Source of the DNA: Azotosporobacter soli
GTDB lineage: Bacteria; Bacillota; Negativicutes; SG130
DNA length: 64,000 nt
Reading direction: 5' to 3'
Assembly (NCBI RefSeq): GCF_030542965.1
Contig: NZ_JAUAOA010000001.1
Span: forward strand, 248,001 to 312,000
Positions 29,517 to 40,492 of this stretch are shown one piece after another; the stretch's first letter is position 1; each line of letters starts with the position of its first letter. The notes beneath the pieces are model-generated. The model was not told the origin of the DNA and did not search any database. It saw nothing but the letters and a program-made list of their open reading frames with translations. Both the position numbers and the translations under genes were made by a program.

Positions 29517-29544
29517 TTGACATTTCTTTCATTTCTGTTAAACT
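29517..29544 (+). promoter_or_regulatory. Candidate promoter of the pel operon
   Basis: TTGACA at 29517-29522 and TAAACT at 29539-29544 with a 16-base spacer, about 110 bases upstream of the c-di-GMP riboswitch core. Confidence 0.6.
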
Positions 29545-29740: not shown

Positions 29741-29775
29741 GTAATCGCTGTTGCCATACCGGCAGTCGTTTTTTA
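29721..29775 (+). terminator. Riboswitch-controlled terminator
   Basis: Outer stem acgactgcc (29721-29729) / ggcagtcgt (29761-29769), inner stem ggttgcaacag / ctgttgccatacc, then tttttt. The 5' arm reuses the conserved aptamer block actgccaggttgc, so aptamer and terminator are mutually exclusive. Confidence 0.88.
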
Positions 29776-29819
29776 ATTTATTTAACGCTGGTTACCATAA
29801 TTTGAAACGAGGTGATTCC

Positions 29820-30806
29820 ATGTTTTTTCGCAGCGCCTGTTGCACGCTTCTTTTCTTGCTTTGCATCGCTGCCTTGCCTTCGCTGGCGCGCGCGCAGCAA
29901 ACGCCGCCCGATTATCCGCTCGAAATGGCGCGCCTGCTCGGACAACTGCGCAGCTATAGTCAGGAACGCAACGCAACGTTTCAGCTTTTGGGCAACGGCA
30001 GTCTCGATTTATTCGCGCCGGAGACGCTGACGCCGTCCGCACGGACGCTAGTCAATACCAGTCTCGACGGCATCCTGATGGAAAGCTATTTTTACGGCTG
30101 GGAGATGAAGGACGACGAGGCGACGCCGCCGGAGGCGCGTCTCGCCTGGTCGTCCGCTTTGACGGCCGCGCAGCAACTGAATCAACCGCTCTTCAACATC
30201 GATTACTGCCGTTCGACTGCGGCAGTCGCAGATTCCTACCAGAAAAACCGACAAGCCGGTTTCGTCTCACTGGCCGCCCCCAACCGCCAGTTAACGAAGC
30301 TGCCGCAAAAAACGCAGCGCAGCAATCGCAGCGACGTCAGCCGTCTCGCCCAGGCGAAGAACTTTCTCGTGCTGTTGAATCCGGAAGAATTCGCCAGCCG
30401 CAGTCTTTATCTCGCCGCTTTGCGCGCCTGTGCATTCGACCTTCTGATCATCGATCCGACCTTCAACAGCTCGCCGCTGACGCCGGATGAAGTCCGTTCG
30501 CTCAAACGCAAGCCGCAGGGCGGCCAGCGTCTGGTTCTCGCTTATCTGAGCATTGCGGAAGCGGAAGATTACCGTCCCTATTGGCAGAAAGACTGGAAAC
30601 AGTCGCCGCCCGCCTGGCTGGTGGCAGCCAATCCCGATTGGGTTGGTAACTTCAAGGTCCGCTACTGGCAAAGCGGCTGGCAGCAGTTGCTCTTCGGCAG
30701 CCGCAATGCGCAGCTCGACAGGATTCTCTCCACCGATTTTGACGGCGCGATGCTCGACGTCGTGGACGGCTATCAGTATTTCCTCGACAACCCCGACGTG
30801 CAATGA
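29820..30806 (+). CDS. Secreted GH114-like hydrolase (PelA hydrolase-domain counterpart)
   Basis: A 328-residue exported protein with a signal peptide (cleavage after ARAQ, about 26). The body resembles the endo-alpha-1,4-polygalactosaminidase/TM1410 barrel (GH114), the fold of the PelA hydrolase domain: DGILMESYFYGWE, FDLLIIDPTFNSS, VLAYLSIAEAEDYRPYWQ, DFDGAMLDVVDGYQYF with a late acidic DxxD pair. In proteobacteria this domain is fused to the deacetylase in PelA; here it is separate. It would trim or release GalNAc-rich Pel polymer. ATG 29820 follows AACGAGGTG. First gene of the riboswitch-controlled operon. Confidence 0.85.
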   Translation: MFFRSACCTLLFLLCIAALPSLARAQQTPPDYPLEMARLLGQLRSYSQERNATFQLLGNGSLDLFAPETLTPSARTLVNTSLDGILMESYFYGWEMKDDEATPPEARLAWSSALTAAQQLNQPLFNIDYCRSTAAVADSYQKNRQAGFVSLAAPNRQLTKLPQKTQRSNRSDVSRLAQAKNFLVLLNPEEFASRSLYLAALRACAFDLLIIDPTFNSSPLTPDEVRSLKRKPQGGQRLVLAYLSIAEAEDYRPYWQKDWKQSPPAWLVAANPDWVGNFKVRYWQSGWQQLLFGSRNAQLDRILSTDFDGAMLDVVDGYQYFLDNPDVQ

Positions 30807-30839: not shown

Positions 30840-33002
30840 ATGAAAATACTTGTCACCGGCGGCTACGGCTTTATCGGCTCGCAGCTGTGCGAAAAACTGA
30901 TTCAGGAAAAGCACGACGTCTTCGTGATCGACGATTTATCGAGCGGTCTGGCGCGCAACCTCACCTTGCCGCATGTCTTTTACCGGCGCAACATCGCCGA
31001 TCAGGAATGTGAAGCGATCTTTCAGAACAACAACCTCGACATCGTGATCCATCTGGCCGCCAAGGTCGACGTCGCAGAATCGGCCAAAGCGCCGTACGAA
31101 GATTGCCAATCCAACATCTTAGGCTTGGTCAATATGCTGCGTCTCTCACACCAGTATAAGGTAAAAAAGTTTCTCTTCATTTCTTCGACTGCCGTATACG
31201 GCGATTCGGCCGAACTCACGCTTTCGGAAGCCAGCCCGCTCAAGCCGCTCTCGCTCTACAGCATCAACAAGGCCAACGGCGAAGCCTACTGCCGCATCTG
31301 GCAGGAGCAATACGGTCTGGAGACCGTCATCCTCCGTCTCTCTAACGTATACGGCCCCCGCCAGGGCAGCTTCGGCGAGGCAGGCGTCATCTCGAGTTTC
31401 TTAAAACAAATCGCAGCCGGACAGAAGCTCGTCATTCACGGCGACGGTCAGCAATGCCGCGATTATCTCTATGTGGACGACGCGGTCATGGCCATCTACT
31501 GGGCGGCGGTAAAAATCGTCCGCCAGCCTGTCATCAACATCGTCAGCCGCCAATCGCACAACCTGCTCGAAGTCGTGAAGCTGCTCGGAAAGCATTACGA
31601 CCTGCCTGGCCTGACGCACGAAAAGTATCGCACGTTCGACATCTGCCGCGCTTCGTTCGACAACAGTGCGGCCAAAGAGCAGCTCGGCTGGACGCCGCGC
31701 TACACGCTGGAAGAGGGCCTTGAAAAAACCTGCCTCTGGCAGGCGGAACAGGCACTTCTTGCGCCGGAAAAAGCGCCGTCCCCGCCTTCATTCCTCTCCG
31801 TTTACCGGCCTTATCTGGAAAACGCGACGCTCTTCGCGCTGATGGCCTGCCTCTCCTTCTTCAATCTGCACGGCGGCCTGCTCGATTTTCGTCTGGGCAT
31901 GGACTACAACTACATCTATATCGCGGTGATGGGTCTGCTCTACGGCAAACAGCAATCGATGCCCGCAACGGCGCTCTCCGTACTGCTCTTTTGCTACAGC
32001 ATGACGGCCAAAGGCGCCGATCTCGTCACGCTCTTGTATCAGGTGCAATACCTGACGCATCTGGCAGTATACCTGGCGCTCGGCGTGATTACTGGCTACG
32101 TCACCGACCGCCGCCGCCACATCCTGGCCGATAAGGAAAACGAACTGGAACGCATCGCCGACAAGCATCGTTTTCTGGAAAAGATGCATTTGGAATGCGT
32201 CCAGGTCAAAGACGTCCTTTATAACCAGATCGTCAATTCCGACGACAGCATCGGCAAGATCTACAGCATCATCAAGGATCTCGACAGCTTGGCGCCGGAA
32301 GACATCTACACGTCCTCGATCGACGTTCTGCAGCGCATCATGCGCTGCGGCAGCGTTGATATCTATACTGTGAACGCCGATTCGTCTTTCTGGCGGATCA
32401 AGGTGCGCGCCAAAGACGATGCGCCGTATCTGGAAAATTCGATTCGTGTCGCCGATTCGCCGTATGCGCAAAAAGTCATGCAGACGAAAGGCGTTTTCGT
32501 GAACCGGCATTTCGCCGGCCCGTCGATGGCCGCGGCAATCCGCTATCAGAACAAGACGATCGCCATCGTGCAGCTTTATAACCTCCCGTTTGAAAGCATG
32601 ACGCTGCATCAGAGCAACCTGCTGCGCGTCACCGCGCTCTTGATCGCGGACGCATTGGGCAAAGCGCACAGCTACGAATTGAGCAGCAGCGAAAAGCAAC
32701 AGGTCAGCGGCACGCAGCTTTTGCTGCCGGACGCGTTTGCCAAGCTGCAACAGGAAATGACCAAACGCAGCCTGAAGCACAACCAACCCTGCACACTGCT
32801 GCGCCTGCGCGATAAGCGCGAGGATCTGGTCGCCCTCTACCACTCGCTGGCCAACGTCATCCGCGCCGAAGATTACGCCGGGCTCGATCCGTCCGGTCAC
32901 GTCCTGCTGCTGCTGCAGAACGTCACACGCGAAATGCTCCCCGTCGTCCAGGAACGCCTGGCGCAAAAAGGATTCCACACCATAGAGATGGCAGGTGCTT
33001 AA
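30840..33002 (+). CDS. pelD: Fusion of UDP-sugar epimerase and PelD-like c-di-GMP receptor
   Basis: A 720-residue fusion. Residues 1-310 are an extended-SDR sugar epimerase (GGYGFIG at 7-13, Y140-x3-K144), likely UDP-GlcNAc/GalNAc C4-epimerase. About 320-425 hold four membrane helices, then a coiled-coil linker, a GAF domain (about 460-605) and a degenerate GGDEF domain (about 625-720). There the catalytic motif is replaced (PSGHV) but an upstream RxxD I-site, RAED at 675-678, is kept at the correct spacing. PelD binds c-di-GMP with this site and activates PelF/PelG synthesis. Fusion of precursor supply to the receptor in one chain is unusual. Confidence 0.9.
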   Translation: MKILVTGGYGFIGSQLCEKLIQEKHDVFVIDDLSSGLARNLTLPHVFYRRNIADQECEAIFQNNNLDIVIHLAAKVDVAESAKAPYEDCQSNILGLVNMLRLSHQYKVKKFLFISSTAVYGDSAELTLSEASPLKPLSLYSINKANGEAYCRIWQEQYGLETVILRLSNVYGPRQGSFGEAGVISSFLKQIAAGQKLVIHGDGQQCRDYLYVDDAVMAIYWAAVKIVRQPVINIVSRQSHNLLEVVKLLGKHYDLPGLTHEKYRTFDICRASFDNSAAKEQLGWTPRYTLEEGLEKTCLWQAEQALLAPEKAPSPPSFLSVYRPYLENATLFALMACLSFFNLHGGLLDFRLGMDYNYIYIAVMGLLYGKQQSMPATALSVLLFCYSMTAKGADLVTLLYQVQYLTHLAVYLALGVITGYVTDRRRHILADKENELERIADKHRFLEKMHLECVQVKDVLYNQIVNSDDSIGKIYSIIKDLDSLAPEDIYTSSIDVLQRIMRCGSVDIYTVNADSSFWRIKVRAKDDAPYLENSIRVADSPYAQKVMQTKGVFVNRHFAGPSMAAAIRYQNKTIAIVQLYNLPFESMTLHQSNLLRVTALLIADALGKAHSYELSSSEKQQVSGTQLLLPDAFAKLQQEMTKRSLKHNQPCTLLRLRDKREDLVALYHSLANVIRAEDYAGLDPSGHVLLLLQNVTREMLPVVQERLAQKGFHTIEMAGA

Positions 33003-33003
33003 T

Positions 33004-33906
33004 ATGATTACTGCATTGTTTCTCCTTCATCTTTTCCTCATCGCAGCCTATGCGGCTTACAGCCGCCTCTTCCAGCGCGACCACACGAGCCGTTTCCTGG
33101 CGGAACTGGCGCTGCTCAGTCTGCTGCCGTTTTTCGGCTTTTTGCTTCTGCTTTTACTGCGCATCAGCCACAAGAGCAACGCGCAGCAAAAAGAAGATCT
33201 CTCCGCACTGTATGGCGAGTTCAAGAAGACGCGCAGCGTCGCGAAACTGGGTCGCCTGCAAAGCGCCGACATCATTCCGGTCCAGGATCTGCTGCTCTTT
33301 GAAGATCCGTTGACCCGGCGCAATGCGCTGACGCGCGTCATCAAGCAGGACCAGCTCGACAACCCCTCCATCCTGCTCGATGCGGTACGCGACAAGGACA
33401 CCGAAATCGCGCATTACGCGGTCTCGATCATGACGCACCGCATCGCGAAACTGGAACTCAAGTTGAATCGCCTGCGCAAGAAAGTAGGCAAGACGTCCGA
33501 TGATCTTTTGCTGCTGAAAAAGTATGCCGCACTGTTGAAACACTATCTGAAAGACACGATCCTCGACGCAAACAGTCGCAACAAATGGCGCGCGGAATAT
33601 GAAGCCGCGCTCGACGCGATCCTGCGCAAGGAAAAAAACGAAAAACTTTACTGGGTGGAACGCATCGAACTGGCGCTGAGCATAAAGGATTACCACAGCG
33701 CGCGCAAGTACGGCCTGGCTTTCTTCAAACGTTTTTCCGATCAGGAAGAGGCGTATCTTCTTTATATGCGCTACTGCCACCTGACCGGGCGTTACACGAT
33801 GCTGCACCGTACCCTGCAAAGACTCAAATCGTCCCGTATCCCTTTCAGCCCAACCGCGCTCGAGACCGTCCGTTTTTGGGATCAAGGAGGTCAACATGCC
33901 TCATAG
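33004..33906 (+). CDS. pelE: PelE-like membrane/TPR protein
   Basis: A 300-residue protein with two N-terminal membrane helices (about 1-20 and 32-55) followed by a long cytoplasmic helical region with TPR-like repeats (YWVERIELALSIKDYHSARKYG, EEAYLLYMRYCHLTGRY). PelE has this two-helix plus TPR design and bridges PelD to the PelF/PelG synthase. The ATG is one base after the pelD stop, and its 3' end overlaps the next gene by 11 bases. Sequence similarity in this family is low, so the call rests on architecture and position. Confidence 0.8.
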   Translation: MITALFLLHLFLIAAYAAYSRLFQRDHTSRFLAELALLSLLPFFGFLLLLLLRISHKSNAQQKEDLSALYGEFKKTRSVAKLGRLQSADIIPVQDLLLFEDPLTRRNALTRVIKQDQLDNPSILLDAVRDKDTEIAHYAVSIMTHRIAKLELKLNRLRKKVGKTSDDLLLLKKYAALLKHYLKDTILDANSRNKWRAEYEAALDAILRKEKNEKLYWVERIELALSIKDYHSARKYGLAFFKRFSDQEEAYLLYMRYCHLTGRYTMLHRTLQRLKSSRIPFSPTALETVRFWDQGGQHAS

Positions 33907-35707
33907 GAATATGTTTCTTGTTCTCTTGCTGGTCTTTTCGCTCGGTCTCTTCTTCCAATACAATCGCAGCGACGGATTTCTCCGTCTCTTCAGCAATCAG
34001 AACACGCAGCTCTTGAGCGGCCAGGCCAAAGAAGAACCGCCGCTCGCGTCCTCTTTGCCGCGCGAGCGCTATCTGATTGTGTACGACCCTGCCGACCCGG
34101 ACAGCCTCCGCTTGGGCGCCAATGTGGAGCAAACCTTGAAAAGTCTAAAAAAAGACTACCTCATCCAATCCGCACGCCAGTCTTTGCCGGAACCCTTTCC
34201 CGCGGTCAACGGCATCATTCTTGTCAGCGGCGATTTGGAAGCGACCGTTGACTTCGATCGCTTTCGCGCGCAGGTTGATTCCGGTCTGACGCTGTATCTT
34301 CTGACGACGCCGGTCTTAAACGACAAGCTCCTTGCCGTACAGACGGAGCTCGGCATCGCTGCCGTCTCCCCCGCGGCCAACGCACCGGGCGGCAGACTGC
34401 TCGACAATCTTCTGCTCGGCGGCAAAGATTTCTCTTTGCCGGGCGGCGTCTTCGACAACAGCTCGCTCGGCGTTCAGTTGACGCCGGAAGCGACCGCGCA
34501 CATGCTTGCGCTTGACAATACGCCGCTCGTTTGGGAGCGCGCTGCCGGTCGCGGCCATTATGTCGTCTTTAACGGCAGCACACTCTCCGGCAAACAGCAG
34601 CGCGGTCTGCTGACCGGCCTGCTCTCGCTCGGCCAGCCGCTTTTCGCCTATCCGGTCGTCGCAAGCAAGACCATGTGCATCGATGACTTTCCCGCGCCGA
34701 TTCCGGAAGGAAAGCACGCCAAGATCTATGACGAGTACCGTCTTTCGACGCCCGAGTTCTTCCGTCAGATCTGGTGGCCCGACATGCTGAGTCTCGCGGC
34801 GAAATATGATATCCGTTACACCGGTCTGATCATCGAGACTTACAACACGCAGCAGAGCGCGCCGTTCGCACCGGAGCAGGACGGCCAGCTGATGCGCAAC
34901 AACCTGATCCTCTACGGGCGCGAGCTCTTGAAAAGCGGCGGCGAACTCGGCGTGCACGGTTACAACCACCAGCCGCTGATCACAGACTTCAACCCGCAGT
35001 ATTCTGACTACACGCCGTGGCCCGACAAAGCGTCGATGGCGGCAAGCCTGAGCGAAGTCCGGCGCTACGTGAAAGAAGCGTATCCTGAATACCAGCTCAA
35101 GACCTACGTACCGCCCTCGAATATGCTGAGTCCCGAGGGACGCCAAGCACTGACCGAAGCGCTGCCCGACCTTGCGATCATCGCTTCGGTCTCGATCGGC
35201 GATCCGGGTCTGCGCAACACCTATTACCAGGATTATAAGCGCGCGGCCGACGGCATCCTCGAGATGCCGCGCCTCAGCTCCGACTACAACCGCCATCCGG
35301 ACGAGGATTGGGCAATTCTGAACGGCATCACGTATATGGGCGTCTTCTCACATTTCGTCCATCCCGACAATATCTTCTATCCCGAAAATGAACAGCGCAG
35401 CTGGCGCGATATGTACGAAGGCCTCGATTCGCTGCTAAAGATGGTACAGAAGAAATACGCCTGGCTGCGCAGCTGCACGCTGTCGCAAAGCGGCGAATAC
35501 TTCAGCGACTATCTCGCGCTCGACTATCGCCTCGTCCCGAGCGATGACGGCCTCGACATCTATTGCTGGGGCTTTCGCCAGGATGCCTGCTTTGTCTTGC
35601 GCAGCGCGAAGAAAATCCGCAGCGCCAGCGGCTGTTCTTATCAACGGATCGATGAGCAAAGTTATCTGATTACTTTGCAAGCCACGCAAGCCCATCTCGC
35701 GTTTTAA
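33896..35707 (+). CDS. pelA: PelA-type polysaccharide deacetylase (DUF2194-like)
   Basis: A 603-residue membrane-anchored exported protein: an N-terminal helix (5-21), a flavodoxin/GATase-like region (about 55-250), then a deacetylase barrel with metal and catalytic motifs CIDDFPAP (D263, D264) and GVHGYNH (H354, H358). This matches the partial de-N-acetylase part of PelA, which generates cationic Pel. The N-terminal hydrolase domain of proteobacterial PelA is absent here and is found as the operon's first gene. The 3' end has a beta-rich domain. Overlaps pelE by 11 bases. Confidence 0.87.
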   Translation: MPHRNMFLVLLLVFSLGLFFQYNRSDGFLRLFSNQNTQLLSGQAKEEPPLASSLPRERYLIVYDPADPDSLRLGANVEQTLKSLKKDYLIQSARQSLPEPFPAVNGIILVSGDLEATVDFDRFRAQVDSGLTLYLLTTPVLNDKLLAVQTELGIAAVSPAANAPGGRLLDNLLLGGKDFSLPGGVFDNSSLGVQLTPEATAHMLALDNTPLVWERAAGRGHYVVFNGSTLSGKQQRGLLTGLLSLGQPLFAYPVVASKTMCIDDFPAPIPEGKHAKIYDEYRLSTPEFFRQIWWPDMLSLAAKYDIRYTGLIIETYNTQQSAPFAPEQDGQLMRNNLILYGRELLKSGGELGVHGYNHQPLITDFNPQYSDYTPWPDKASMAASLSEVRRYVKEAYPEYQLKTYVPPSNMLSPEGRQALTEALPDLAIIASVSIGDPGLRNTYYQDYKRAADGILEMPRLSSDYNRHPDEDWAILNGITYMGVFSHFVHPDNIFYPENEQRSWRDMYEGLDSLLKMVQKKYAWLRSCTLSQSGEYFSDYLALDYRLVPSDDGLDIYCWGFRQDACFVLRSAKKIRSASGCSYQRIDEQSYLITLQATQAHLAF

Positions 35708-35720
35708 GGAGTGTCACCGC

Positions 35721-37145
35721 ATGAAAATTTGTCTGATTGTCGAAGGCAGTTACCCGTACGTGACCGGCGGCGTAGCCTCCTGGATTCAAATGCTGATCCA
35801 GGGCATGCCGGAACACGAATTCGTCATTTATTCGATCGCGGCGGAAGCAAAGGAGCGCGGGCGCTTTCAATATAAGCTGCCCGCCAATTTGACAGAAGTC
35901 CGCGAACTGTTCTTAGACAGCATTCTCAAACTGAAGACGCCGCAGTTGAACGCCTGCTCGCTGAGCCGCCAGGAGATCGACTGTTTATCGGCGCTGATTC
36001 GCAGCGACGGCGTCTTGGATCTGGCAAAGCTGCTGCCAATTTTTCGTTCCGCACGCACGCGTTCGGCGCTCGATATCTTTATGAGTTTCGATTTTTTTGA
36101 CGCGATCAAAGAAGCGTACGAGGAAAAATACAGCGATTTGCCGTTCACCGATTTTTTCTGGACGATCCGCTCGATGCTGCTGCCGCTCTTTTACTTGTTG
36201 CAGCAGGACGTTCCCGAAGCCGATCTCTATCACAGCGTCGCAACCGGCTACGCCGGCGCAGTCGGCAGTCTCGCCTCCGTCTTATACGAAAAACCGTTCA
36301 TCCTCACCGAACACGGCATTTATTCGCGTGAGCGCGAAGAGGAATTGTTGAAAGCGACCTGGGTAAAAGAAGACTTTAAAGACTTATGGATTTCCTATTT
36401 TTACAGCCTCTCGCGTTTGACCTATGAGCGGGCAACAGCGGTTTACACGCTGTTTGAAAAAAATGCGGAAATCGAACGCTATTTAGGCTGCGCGCCGGAA
36501 AAGATCCGAGTCATCCCCAACGGAATCGATGTGGAAAAATACGCGGCACTGGCAAAAAAAGAATCCGGCGGACCGCTGACGATCGGCACGATCGCGCGCG
36601 TCGTGCCGATCAAGGACCTCCTGACGATGCTGCGCAGTTTCGCGCTGGTACAAGAGCAGCTTCCGGATGCCCGCTTCCTGATCGTCGGCCCTACCGATGC
36701 CGACCCCGAATATTATCAAAACTGTCTGGAACTGGTCGAGAACCTAAACCTTTCGAACATCGAATTCACCGGCCGCCAGGACGTAGCGCCGTATCTGCAG
36801 GAAATCGACATTCTCGTGCTGAGCAGCATCAGTGAGGGGCAGCCGCTGGTAATCCTCGAAGCGTTCGCCTGCGCGACGCCCTGCATCGCGACCAATGTCG
36901 GCGCTTGCAGCGAACTTATTTATGGCGCTGGGGACGATTTGGGCAAAGCCGGTTATATCGTACCGCTGCTTGACTATGAGACGATGGCCAACGCCATCCT
37001 CCGCTTGGCCTCGGACCAGGAACTGCGCAGGCAAATGGGGCAAAACGGCTTTGCGCGCGCAGCCAGCCTCTACACCAAGGATCTGCTGATTCAACGTTAT
37101 AAAAAAGTTTATGAAGAAAATGGGATGGTACTATGGCAGGAATAG
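35721..37145 (+). CDS. pelF: Pel polysaccharide glycosyltransferase PelF (GT4)
   Basis: A 474-residue cytosolic GT-B glycosyltransferase. The N-terminus CLIVEGSYPYVTGGVASWI is diagnostic for PelF; VIPNGIDVEKY and the EX7E-type SEGQPLVILEAFACATP are GT4 donor-site motifs. It polymerises GalNAc-type residues from UDP-sugars. GGAG precedes the ATG. The gene overlaps pelG by 13 bases, consistent with a tight PelF-PelG complex. Confidence 0.96.
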   Translation: MKICLIVEGSYPYVTGGVASWIQMLIQGMPEHEFVIYSIAAEAKERGRFQYKLPANLTEVRELFLDSILKLKTPQLNACSLSRQEIDCLSALIRSDGVLDLAKLLPIFRSARTRSALDIFMSFDFFDAIKEAYEEKYSDLPFTDFFWTIRSMLLPLFYLLQQDVPEADLYHSVATGYAGAVGSLASVLYEKPFILTEHGIYSREREEELLKATWVKEDFKDLWISYFYSLSRLTYERATAVYTLFEKNAEIERYLGCAPEKIRVIPNGIDVEKYAALAKKESGGPLTIGTIARVVPIKDLLTMLRSFALVQEQLPDARFLIVGPTDADPEYYQNCLELVENLNLSNIEFTGRQDVAPYLQEIDILVLSSISEGQPLVILEAFACATPCIATNVGACSELIYGAGDDLGKAGYIVPLLDYETMANAILRLASDQELRRQMGQNGFARAASLYTKDLLIQRYKKVYEENGMVLWQE

Positions 37146-38596
37146 GCTTTGAATTAAAGAAACTCTTTAACAAGACCAGTACCGTTGGCTATCTGATGGC
37201 CAGCTTTTACACGGCGATCGTCACGCTAGGGCCGTTCATGCTGGCCACGCTGATGATCCTGGCGATCCAGCAACTGATGACGCTGATGGATGCCTCTTAC
37301 TACAGCAGACAACTCTATCTCGGTTCCATCGTCTATCCGTTCATCTTCTCGCAGATCGTCTCGAGCGGCTTTTCGATGCTGATCACCCGTTATGTCGCCG
37401 ACCGTCTCTTCAATGAACAGTATGAAGAGATCATCCCCTCGCTCTTCGGCATCCTCGCTCTTGCCCTCGCGCTCGGCGCTGTGCCGGCTCTGCTTTTTCT
37501 TTGGAATTCGCCGCTGCCGTTGCTGCTCAAAGTCCTTACCTATCTTTTATATATGGAACTGATCATCGTCTGGATTCAGGGCGTCTATCTATCGGCCTTA
37601 AAGGATTATCTCAAGATCATCTTTTCCTATGCCGCCGGTACCGCAACCGCCGTTTTCCTTGCCTTCGCCGCCTTATACCTGCTGCCGGATCAGGACAGCA
37701 TGCTGCTCGGCATACTGTTTGCCGTCTGCAGCGGCGTTTTTGTCATTCTCGCGCTGCTGCTCTTTTACATCTTGCAGTTTTTTCCGTTACGCGGCGGCCA
37801 TTATTTTGCCTTCCTGCATTATTTTGACGATCACACCCGTCTTTTCGTGACGAATTTCTGCTACACGCTCGGCATTTACACCGCCAACTTTTTCTTGTGG
37901 CGAAGCGACGCGGCGCAAATCGTCGCGGGTACGTATCGTTTTTCGCCGACCTATGACGTGGCGACATTCTACGCCTTTCTTTCGATCATGCCGACGATGG
38001 CGGCCTTTGTCGTCTCCGCCGAACTTGTCTTTTACGATAAATACAGGGTGTATTTCAGCGCCATCACCGGCAAAGGAAATTATCAGGAAATCGAGACAGC
38101 CCGCCAGGATATGCTGCAGACGATGTGGTCGGAAATCCGCAACCTGTTTGAATTTCAGTTGGTCTTCTCGCTTCTCTTTCTGGCGCTGGGCGATTTTTTG
38201 TTACCCGGCATCGGCATCACGCACGAGTCGATCGACATTTATAATATCCTCATCCTTGGTTCCTTTGCGATCGGCATGGCGCAAATCATCCAGATCATCC
38301 TGCTTTATTTTGATGCGCGTCGCGAGGCCTTGCTCATTTCTCTTTTGTTTTTCACCAGTAACTTCGCACTCAATCTGATCGGCCTTCATCTGCCAACGAA
38401 TCTGCAAGGTTTTCCCTTTTTCCTCTCCAGCATGCTGACCGTGTCCGTTTCGATCTATCTGCTTCATTCCTATGCCAAACGCCTCGATTATTTCGTCTTC
38501 AGTTCGCAGCCGATGTTCACACAGACCCTGCCCGGACTACTGCAGCGCGTTTGTCGCGCTCTCGGCGCAAATTTATCCGGCAACTCGAATCGATAA
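37133..38596 (+). CDS. pelG: Pel transport membrane protein PelG
   Basis: A 487-residue, roughly 12-helix membrane protein of the MATE/Wzx-like superfamily. The N-terminus MAGIGFELKKLFNK is the characteristic PelG start. It forms the inner-membrane path for the polymer made by PelF and regulated by PelD/E. Start overlaps pelF by 13 bases. No truncation or missing segment was noticed. Confidence 0.95.
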   Translation: MAGIGFELKKLFNKTSTVGYLMASFYTAIVTLGPFMLATLMILAIQQLMTLMDASYYSRQLYLGSIVYPFIFSQIVSSGFSMLITRYVADRLFNEQYEEIIPSLFGILALALALGAVPALLFLWNSPLPLLLKVLTYLLYMELIIVWIQGVYLSALKDYLKIIFSYAAGTATAVFLAFAALYLLPDQDSMLLGILFAVCSGVFVILALLLFYILQFFPLRGGHYFAFLHYFDDHTRLFVTNFCYTLGIYTANFFLWRSDAAQIVAGTYRFSPTYDVATFYAFLSIMPTMAAFVVSAELVFYDKYRVYFSAITGKGNYQEIETARQDMLQTMWSEIRNLFEFQLVFSLLFLALGDFLLPGIGITHESIDIYNILILGSFAIGMAQIIQIILLYFDARREALLISLLFFTSNFALNLIGLHLPTNLQGFPFFLSSMLTVSVSIYLLHSYAKRLDYFVFSSQPMFTQTLPGLLQRVCRALGANLSGNSNR

Positions 38597-38611
38597 AAGG
38601 AGCCTCTATTT

Positions 38612-40492
38612 ATGCGTGTAAAGAAATTTGTTCCTCTGCTTTGCCCCTTGCTCTTGCTTAGCGCTTCGCCTCAAGTATTCGCCGCGGATGCCGTCGGCAT
38701 CGTTGAAGAAGCGCGCGGCGACGCCGCCGCGCTGCGTCAGGCGCGAACCGCGCTCGAAGATGAGGCGCAGCGCCAGGCCGATATCCGCTCCGCCAGAGCG
38801 GCGCTGCAGCAGGCGGAAGTTCAGCTGCGCGCCGCGCTCGACGCCGAGGCGAAAGCGCTCGAAACGCTGCGCCTGTCTGAAGAAGCCGTCCGCAAAGCGG
38901 AGCAGGGCCTGCTCGAAGCGACAAGCAATGTCGAGGCGGCCAAGCTCGCATTGCAATCGGCGCAAAGCGCCGAAAAAGAGGCGCTCGCCGAACTTTCCGC
39001 TGCGCAAAACGCAGCGACGGCGGCCGAAAACGAAGCCCGGCGCGCCGACGCACAGGTGAAGCGCATCGAATCCGAGAATGCGCCCGCATCCCTGACCACC
39101 TTTGAAGGCGCCAATCTCGACGCTCTTTTGGCGCAGGCCGAAGAAACGCGTCGCCGCGTCGAGCTTGCCAGCGCTCACGCCGCAGGCAAATGGCAGACGG
39201 CCGATCGCTTATCCGCCGCCGTTGAGCGGGTCGAAGTTCGGGCGGATGCGCTGACGCAAAAACGCGAAGCCGCCGACGAGGCGCTGCAGGAAGCGCAGGA
39301 TCGCCTTCTGAGCGCCGCCGATTTGCTGCGCGATGCCAAGAATGATAAAACGGATGCTGCCCTTGCGCTGCCCGAAGCACAAAAAGATACGCTCGCTGCC
39401 CGCACGGCACTCGCGGAAGTAAAAAGCAATCTGGCTTTGCTCGAAAACCCGCCGCCGGATAAAAACGTCTATTATTCCGTTAGCAGCAAATATTACTATG
39501 CCAAGCGAAGCGACGGTCAGGATTTTTATCAGTGGCTGCAGGGTTATGATTTTTCTTATTCGAGTCATGGCGTCGACTACGGTCTGACGAGCAATTACGT
39601 CATCTCCAACAGCAGCCTCGGTTCGCGCGTCGCAACGTTTTCCGACACGCAGCTTTCCATCGGCCACACCAATAAAAACAAAGACTATCCCGTCCGTTAC
39701 ACGCTCGACGTCACGTTGCCGACCGGCAAGGCAGCACTGAGCGCACGCGAGACAAACACTCTTATCGAAGAAGATCTTGCGCCGCTGAACAACTTCGGCG
39801 AAGGCTGGCAAGTGACGCCGGGCATCAGCATCAGCCGCCCGATCGGCAAGGAAGATAATTGGACCTTCGGCACTCGTTTCAATATCGCCTGGCAATATCA
39901 GCCGCTCAAAGACGATCCTACCTCCGTCACGTTGCCCGGCCGCCAGTTGGAAACCTTTATCCGTTGGCAGCATCTCGGCGCAAAGCAGCAGACGCTGGCG
40001 GAACTTCTGCATAGCTCTTCGTCAATGACGCAGCAAAACAAACTTGATTATTACCGGGAAGGCTCTGAGTGGGATTTCAAGCTGGTGCATAATCGCAGCC
40101 TCTCAAAACGCGACAATCTGATGCTCTATGGACGCGCCACCTACCACCAGGCAGATGCTTATGCTCCCGGCATCGTGCAAAGCGATGCCAATACCGGTTT
40201 GCACAGTTACGCGACCGGCGCGGGTTGGAGTCGCGCGCTTTCGCCGACGCGCACGCTGCGTCTGAACCTCGACTATCTGAAACGCAACGGCAGCATCGTC
40301 ACCTTGAATCTGCCGACCGCGATCGGCAATCGCAGCAAATTCAGCTACGGCATCGGCTTCGACTGGTCGCTGCCGCATGAACGCAGCCTGTCACTGGACT
40401 TGCAAAAATTCTGGCTGCATACCTCGAGTGTGAGCGACGCACCGAACTATGACGGCATCGCCATGCAGTTCAAATTCTCTTCCGCCTTTTAA
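38612..40492 (+). CDS. Outer-membrane beta-barrel with long periplasmic coiled coil (candidate Pel exporter)
   Basis: A 626-residue protein: signal peptide (1-24), about 260 residues of Ala/Glu/Arg-rich heptad coiled coil (26-285), a proline hinge (ENPPPDKNVYY), then about 330 residues of alternating beta-strands typical of a barrel, ending MQFKFSSAF with the terminal Phe of an outer-membrane insertion signal. Proteobacterial Pel systems use PelB (TPR repeats plus barrel) and PelC here; neither is present. Position at the end of the pel operon and the combination of periplasmic arm plus barrel suggest a functional replacement. An OmpM-like tether is the main alternative, but no SLH domain is seen. 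Confidence 0.8.
   Translation: MRVKKFVPLLCPLLLLSASPQVFAADAVGIVEEARGDAAALRQARTALEDEAQRQADIRSARAALQQAEVQLRAALDAEAKALETLRLSEEAVRKAEQGLLEATSNVEAAKLALQSAQSAEKEALAELSAAQNAATAAENEARRADAQVKRIESENAPASLTTFEGANLDALLAQAEETRRRVELASAHAAGKWQTADRLSAAVERVEVRADALTQKREAADEALQEAQDRLLSAADLLRDAKNDKTDAALALPEAQKDTLAARTALAEVKSNLALLENPPPDKNVYYSVSSKYYYAKRSDGQDFYQWLQGYDFSYSSHGVDYGLTSNYVISNSSLGSRVATFSDTQLSIGHTNKNKDYPVRYTLDVTLPTGKAALSARETNTLIEEDLAPLNNFGEGWQVTPGISISRPIGKEDNWTFGTRFNIAWQYQPLKDDPTSVTLPGRQLETFIRWQHLGAKQQTLAELLHSSSSMTQQNKLDYYREGSEWDFKLVHNRSLSKRDNLMLYGRATYHQADAYAPGIVQSDANTGLHSYATGAGWSRALSPTRTLRLNLDYLKRNGSIVTLNLPTAIGNRSKFSYGIGFDWSLPHERSLSLDLQKFWLHTSSVSDAPNYDGIAMQFKFSSAF

Follow-up and report, generated by a model that had tools for sequence, protein, structure and literature searches.

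In the Negativicutes, monoderm-like pel genes lie behind an outer membrane, which raises the question of how the Pel polysaccharide leaves these cells. Known synthase-dependent exporters consist of a TPR part and an outer-membrane barrel. No outer-membrane exit for Negativicutes Pel is named in the open literature searched, in which PelF and PelG have been noted in Selenomonas sputigena (PMC13339959). The window analysed here, a stretch of 64,000 nucleotides of Azotosporobacter soli DNA, contains a pel operon whose last gene was put forward in a preliminary description as a replacement for PelB and PelC. The encoded protein is probably the translocon by which Negativicutes Pel crosses the outer membrane, and the best explanation of the data is an outer-membrane Pel export channel from a family that is also used for other synthase-dependent polymers. 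Since related pel genes form a pelDEADAFG cluster in Bacillus cereus, a monoderm (PMC13254593), the candidate exporter gene would be a diderm-specific addition.

The pel operon and its last gene

The operon starts at about position 29751 on the plus strand and encodes, in this order, a GH114 protein, an SDR and PelD-like protein, a PelE-like protein, a DUF2194 deacetylase, PelF, PelG and the candidate exporter (Table 1). A pattern scan, which yields consensus matches only, placed a promoter-like site 5' of the operon; the following strong site lies 5' of a TetR gene beyond the candidate exporter, in agreement with the earlier view that this gene closes the operon. The pelG stop codon (38594-38596) is separated from the candidate's start by 15 bases. 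The candidate exporter is the sole recognised outer-membrane protein in the operon, and no OPX protein was recognised there. The position of the PelD-like gene is conserved across related pel loci, and homologues of the PelE-like protein occupy the same place in most of them. The fusion of an NAD-dependent sugar epimerase N-terminal to the PelD-like module in one gene (30840-33002) is likewise found in most related loci.

With regard to database matches, the candidate has none in Pfam and none in NCBIfam apart from coiled-coil noise, as which a match to SMC_prok_B (E 0.0012) was dismissed. A PDB sequence search with the single protein returned just weak nanobody and head-tail connector matches, none of them credible, and a search with the barrel profile returned no matches. 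In the genome contigs, no related locus was found with the single protein, while a five-row alignment found one, on a contig of a Massilibacillus MAG (G001).

Table 1. Features of the pel operon and of the candidate exporter (positions in the window)
Feature	Position	Strand	Basis or remark
Sigma-70-like promoter, TTGACA-16-TAAACT, TG before -10	29517..29544	+	5' of operon; consensus match only
GH114 endo-alpha-1,4-polygalactosaminidase-like protein, hydrolase half of PelA	29751..30806	+	PF03537 6.6e-13; TIGR01370 8.7e-35, under NCBI cut-off
SDR sugar epimerase fused to membrane and GAF module, PelD-like	30840..33002	+	PF01370 1.5e-59; weak GAF_3, DUF4118
PelE-like membrane protein	32995..33906	+	named by position; without Pfam match
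DUF2194 protein, deacetylase half of PelA (deacetylase fold; N-terminal hydrophobic segment)	33896..35707	+	PF09960 8.3e-126; weak PF01522
PelF glycosyltransferase	35721..37145	+	NF038011 1e-115
PelG inner-membrane transporter	37133..38596	+	PF16933 4.8e-132
Shine-Dalgarno AGGAG of candidate exporter gene	38598..38602	+	read from sequence
Candidate outer-membrane Pel exporter, 626 aa	38612..40492	+	ATG start
Signal peptide, residues 1-25 (1-24/25), ...QVFA/A	38612..38686	+	by inspection
Long helix 1, residues 26-155	38687..39076	+	AlphaFold2; 3.5-residue periodicity
Non-helical turn, residues 156-168, predicted hairpin tip	39077..39115	+	AlphaFold2
Long helix 2, residues 169-278	39116..39445	+	AlphaFold2; 3.5-residue periodicity
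Beta-barrel domain, residues 286-626 (341 residues), C-terminal Phe	39467..40489	+	alignment; strand model

The coiled-coil arm

The protein had been described as a signal peptide followed by about 260 residues of coiled coil and about 330 residues of beta-strands ending in Phe; all of these parts are present, with the two latter found to span about 250 and 341 residues. The hydrophobic period of the coil is exactly 3.5 in each half (residues 26-155 and 170-280), above the 99% level of shuffles, and the heptad phase breaks between the halves. AlphaFold2, run on a two-row alignment, modelled two long helices (pLDDT 88, pTM 0.60). The best matches in a fold search were SMC arms, with a TM-score of up to 0.71 and none at E<=0.001, which makes them a shape analogy only; other long helical hairpins were also returned. 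As SMC arms are antiparallel coiled coils, the coil is read as an antiparallel hairpin. The arm would most simply be an intramolecular hairpin of 110-130 residues and 16-19 nm, and the simplest reading of the model places the predicted tip far from the outer membrane. The earlier proposal of a coiled-coil arm substituting for TPRs is corrected in that the simplest form of the arm is an intramolecular hairpin, and not an OmpM-like trimeric stalk.

Within the coil, the tip region is one of the parts with better conservation and carries a (Y/W)xQNR motif in many Pel-linked homologues, which is absent from the window protein and its nearest relatives. In every full-length Pel-linked homologue the arm is acidic, with a net charge of -11 to -48 (mean about -30). 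Pel is a cationic polymer (PMC12141448), which an acidic arm suits, though acidic coils are common. In selenomonad homologues (examples are L075_4, L072_3, L062_1, L105_6 and L107_4), the basic motif (M/F)R(M/L)(S/T)RKRRRRL occurs one to four times before the signal-peptide core.

The barrel domain

The strands of the barrel were counted with a dynamic-programming model applied to the profile of 30 homologues. The model's cost per strand was calibrated on OmpF, OmpA, OmpG, FadL, PgaA, BcsC and the Azonexus PelB; at the cost used, 5-6 of these 7 control barrels were counted correctly. The best-supported number for the family profile is 16, and since counts on single sequences are noisier, the honest range is 14-18. 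At 16 strands the in/out alternation reaches z = 8.9 against column shuffles, which themselves favour 10-14 strands. In the predicted barrel, the turns on one side are short; the loops on the opposite side are long and contain indels. An AlphaFold2 model of this domain, from a two-row alignment with one homologue, was unusable (pLDDT 28).

In Pel-linked homologues the inward-facing residues comprise about 10 acidic and 11 basic ones, with no acidic excess. A higher acidity inside Pel-linked barrels, as compared with other barrels of the family, was considered and not borne out. Weak matches to Phenol_MetA_deg (PF13557) in 5 of the 30 homologues (best 2.9e-6; the window protein is unmatched) may point to the origin of the barrel. 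In three homologues (L062, L075 and L084, from G011, G267 and G190), one and the same loop of the predicted barrel is interrupted by helical-looking inserts of about 110-450 residues, near window residue 435.

Association with pelG in the Negativicutes

In a sample of 300 genomes of one class, identified as Negativicutes through the Massilibacillus MAG, and weighted to one family, PelG scored above the cut-off in 47 and a barrel homologue was found in 57, including all 47 of the PelG genomes. The barrel gene lies directly 3' of pelG and on the same strand in 43 of these 47. Elsewhere, a contig end cuts the candidate exporter gene just past the coil (G261), the gene lies further along the same pel cluster (G193), or the homologue is located away from the pel locus (G217 and G260). 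Fisher's exact test on the co-occurrence gives p 1.9e-45, with genomes that are not independent and belong mostly to one family; the association is seen in seven families of the class (f1, f4, f10, f11, f12, f16 and f35). Of the co-occurrence with pelFG in diderm Firmicutes that had been proposed as a check, the part on pelG is borne out in this class, and homologues do not lie mostly outside pel loci.

Two loci have unusual structures. In G148 (L071:13714-17545), a 476-aa transposase-like ORF splits the exporter gene into a coil part and a barrel part. In G010 (L055:13171-16578), pelG and the exporter gene run together in a single open frame (1135 aa) that has a signal-peptide-like stretch mid-way, and the junction, seen in one draft genome, has neither a stop nor a start with a well-placed Shine-Dalgarno; this could be a fusion or an assembly effect and is given little weight.

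Homologues in other polysaccharide loci

Out of the 13 homologue loci that are not beside pelG, 7 fall in other polysaccharide-synthase clusters. At L049 and L050, genes for a GT2 and a BcsB-family protein precede the homologue, and a DUF2334 deacetylase is encoded upstream; at L053 and L102 its neighbours are a cellulose-synthase-like gene that bears PilZ and a GH5 cellulase gene, accompanied at L053 by an MBOAT gene; and at L051, L101 and L104 it occurs with a GT2 and a deacetylase-type gene, L050 and L104 being assigned from gene order and similarity. The remaining 6 (L048, L052, L103, L105, L106 and L107) are orphan or near a contig end. G010 has two copies, one at a pel locus and one at a cellulose-type locus.

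Maximum-likelihood analysis places the copies of BcsB-type and cellulose-type loci together in a clade with good support, which groups with the window protein and two other Pel-linked copies (95/95), and this grouping nests in a larger clade that also holds Pel-linked copies. Copies from BcsB-type and cellulose-type loci hence nest among Pel-linked ones. The barrel family thus follows synthase loci and not a single polymer, and it has probably been swapped into other synthase-dependent polysaccharide loci. The proposed replacement for PelB and PelC in the Negativicutes therefore needs qualification: the pelG association, the lack of PF24604, the lack of an SLH domain and of any detectable relation to OmpM, and the 16-strand model speak for it, but the family is not Pel-specific.

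Comparison with known exporters

The PelB/PelC system of Pseudomonas aeruginosa resembles the candidate in its outer-membrane barrel, in the long helical part that this barrel carries in the periplasm and in being encoded together with pelF and pelG. The barrel of PelB has 16 strands and a negative interior and is accompanied by a ring of PelC (PMC12141448); the strand number is the one favoured by the model for the candidate, whereas the interior of the candidate's family is not acid-rich. The arms also differ, that of PelB being made of TPRs and that of the candidate being a predicted two-helix coil, in which the Pfam TPR models find no match. The PelB barrel model PF24604 does not match the candidate either, and it is absent from 29 pelG-positive genomes (that of the window and 28 others) and from the other tested genomes carrying barrel homologues. 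As a positive control, the same model finds the Azonexus PelB at 3.6e-56 and 1.7e-58. Profile comparison with the Azonexus PelB detected no relation to the candidate's family. An Azonexus PelC-like lipoprotein had no match in 8 Negativicutes genomes, in a query of low sensitivity, as small proteins diverge quickly; a search for a family model of this lipoprotein gave none.

BcsC and PgaA, the exporters of cellulose and PNAG, are similarly encoded in synthase-dependent loci and have a periplasmic arm followed by a C-terminal barrel. They combine TPRs with barrels of 16 strands, the number also favoured for the candidate, but hhalign shows no similarity of its family to either. Furthermore, PF05420 (BCSC_C) and PF21197 (PgaA_barrel) are absent from 8 genomes with homologues, with a positive E. 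coli control. No relation to OmpF was detected by profile comparison. Polysaccharide exporters come in several architectures, such as the composite OPX/beta-barrel EpsX/EpsY of Myxococcus (PMC9601211), which differs from the candidate in its 18 strands, its separate OPX protein and its use in Wzx/Wzy pathways.

Alternative readings

Among Negativicutes outer-membrane proteins, the OmpM of Veillonella is similar to the candidate in having periplasmic helices and a barrel, which in VpOmpM1 has 16 strands (PMC10628300). As OmpF and OmpM are also 16-stranded, the strand number cannot single out an exporter, and the shared layout of coil and barrel could suggest a periplasm-spanning tether or scaffold for the Pel machinery, with the barrel merely as a membrane anchor. 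Such a role is quite improbable. OmpM is a tether and nutrient porin equipped with an SLH domain and a three-chain stalk, whereas Pfam finds no SLH domain in the candidate, and AlphaFold2 predicts two helices per chain against the single helix of an OmpM-type stalk. Profile comparison detected no match of the candidate's family among solved structures or to the SLH-barrel protein encoded in the same genome, so that no relation to OmpM is detectable. Moreover, the genome encodes three separate SLH proteins (G000:C2:344547-348164), and the tether role therefore seems to be filled elsewhere.

The protein might instead act as a surface anchor or receiver of the polymer, with Pel leaving via another outer-membrane protein. 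Wzi of E. coli and Klebsiella is a precedent: this barrel protein of the outer membrane belongs to a polysaccharide pathway, in which it anchors instead of exporting (PMC9601211). The large loop insertions in three homologues would be compatible with such a role. This is nevertheless unlikely, given an operon without any other recognised outer-membrane protein, a 250-residue periplasmic arm that a surface anchor does not need and the recurrence of the family at the exporter position of other synthase loci. The weak resemblance of some members to Phenol_MetA_deg, a broad barrel family, and the few orphan homologues could also be taken to indicate a mere passenger of the pel genes, with the role of a general or uptake porin. 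The pelG association in 47 of 47 genomes, the presence at other synthase loci and the large dedicated arm all make a passenger porin very improbable.

A proposed export route

In the favoured reading, as an export channel, PelF would make Pel, which would cross the inner membrane through PelG/PelD/PelE. In the periplasm, the DUF2194 and GH114 proteins would deacetylate and trim the polymer, which would then exit through the 16-stranded barrel of the candidate. The hairpin arm would span the periplasm and serve cationic Pel as a guide between PelG and the deacetylase on one side and the pore on the other, its tip contacting the inner-membrane complex, and would thereby do the job of both the PelB TPR arm and the PelC lipoprotein ring. 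We infer the closed pore, its strand number, the passage of polymer and the contact of the tip with the inner-membrane complex. Since an acidic coil is nothing unusual and acidic residues are not enriched inside the barrel, export is a predicted function, the most economical reading of position and anatomy.

Fusobacterial parallel and significance

The pel operons of Fusobacteria seem to rely on a different barrel again. As in the Negativicutes, a predicted barrel gene (305-316 aa, one matching OMP_b-brl) comes right after pelG, DUF2194 and GH114 genes are present and PelB is lacking, with no match to PF24604 in the pel records of Cetobacterium (L111) or Fusobacterium (L113), both of which are diderms. 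The fusobacterial barrel, in contrast, has no coil, and in both genera it is PelG that bears a C-terminal, lipobox-bearing domain of YDxxGYNxxG repeats (L111:12001-15019 and L113:10001-13270). No profile match to the Negativicutes family was detectable. This suggests that pel synthases gained outer-membrane exits more than once.

The chances appear to be about even that the Negativicutes possess a single-chain architecture, unrelated to the TPR exporters, in which a hairpin bridges the synthase to a 16-stranded pore and which is exchangeable among Pel, cellulose-like and other synthase polymers, with the Fusobacteria representing a separate solution. If the candidate is indeed the exporter, it would reveal the way in which diderms equip a synthase system with an outer-membrane exit and would explain the export of Pel by gut and oral selenomonads.
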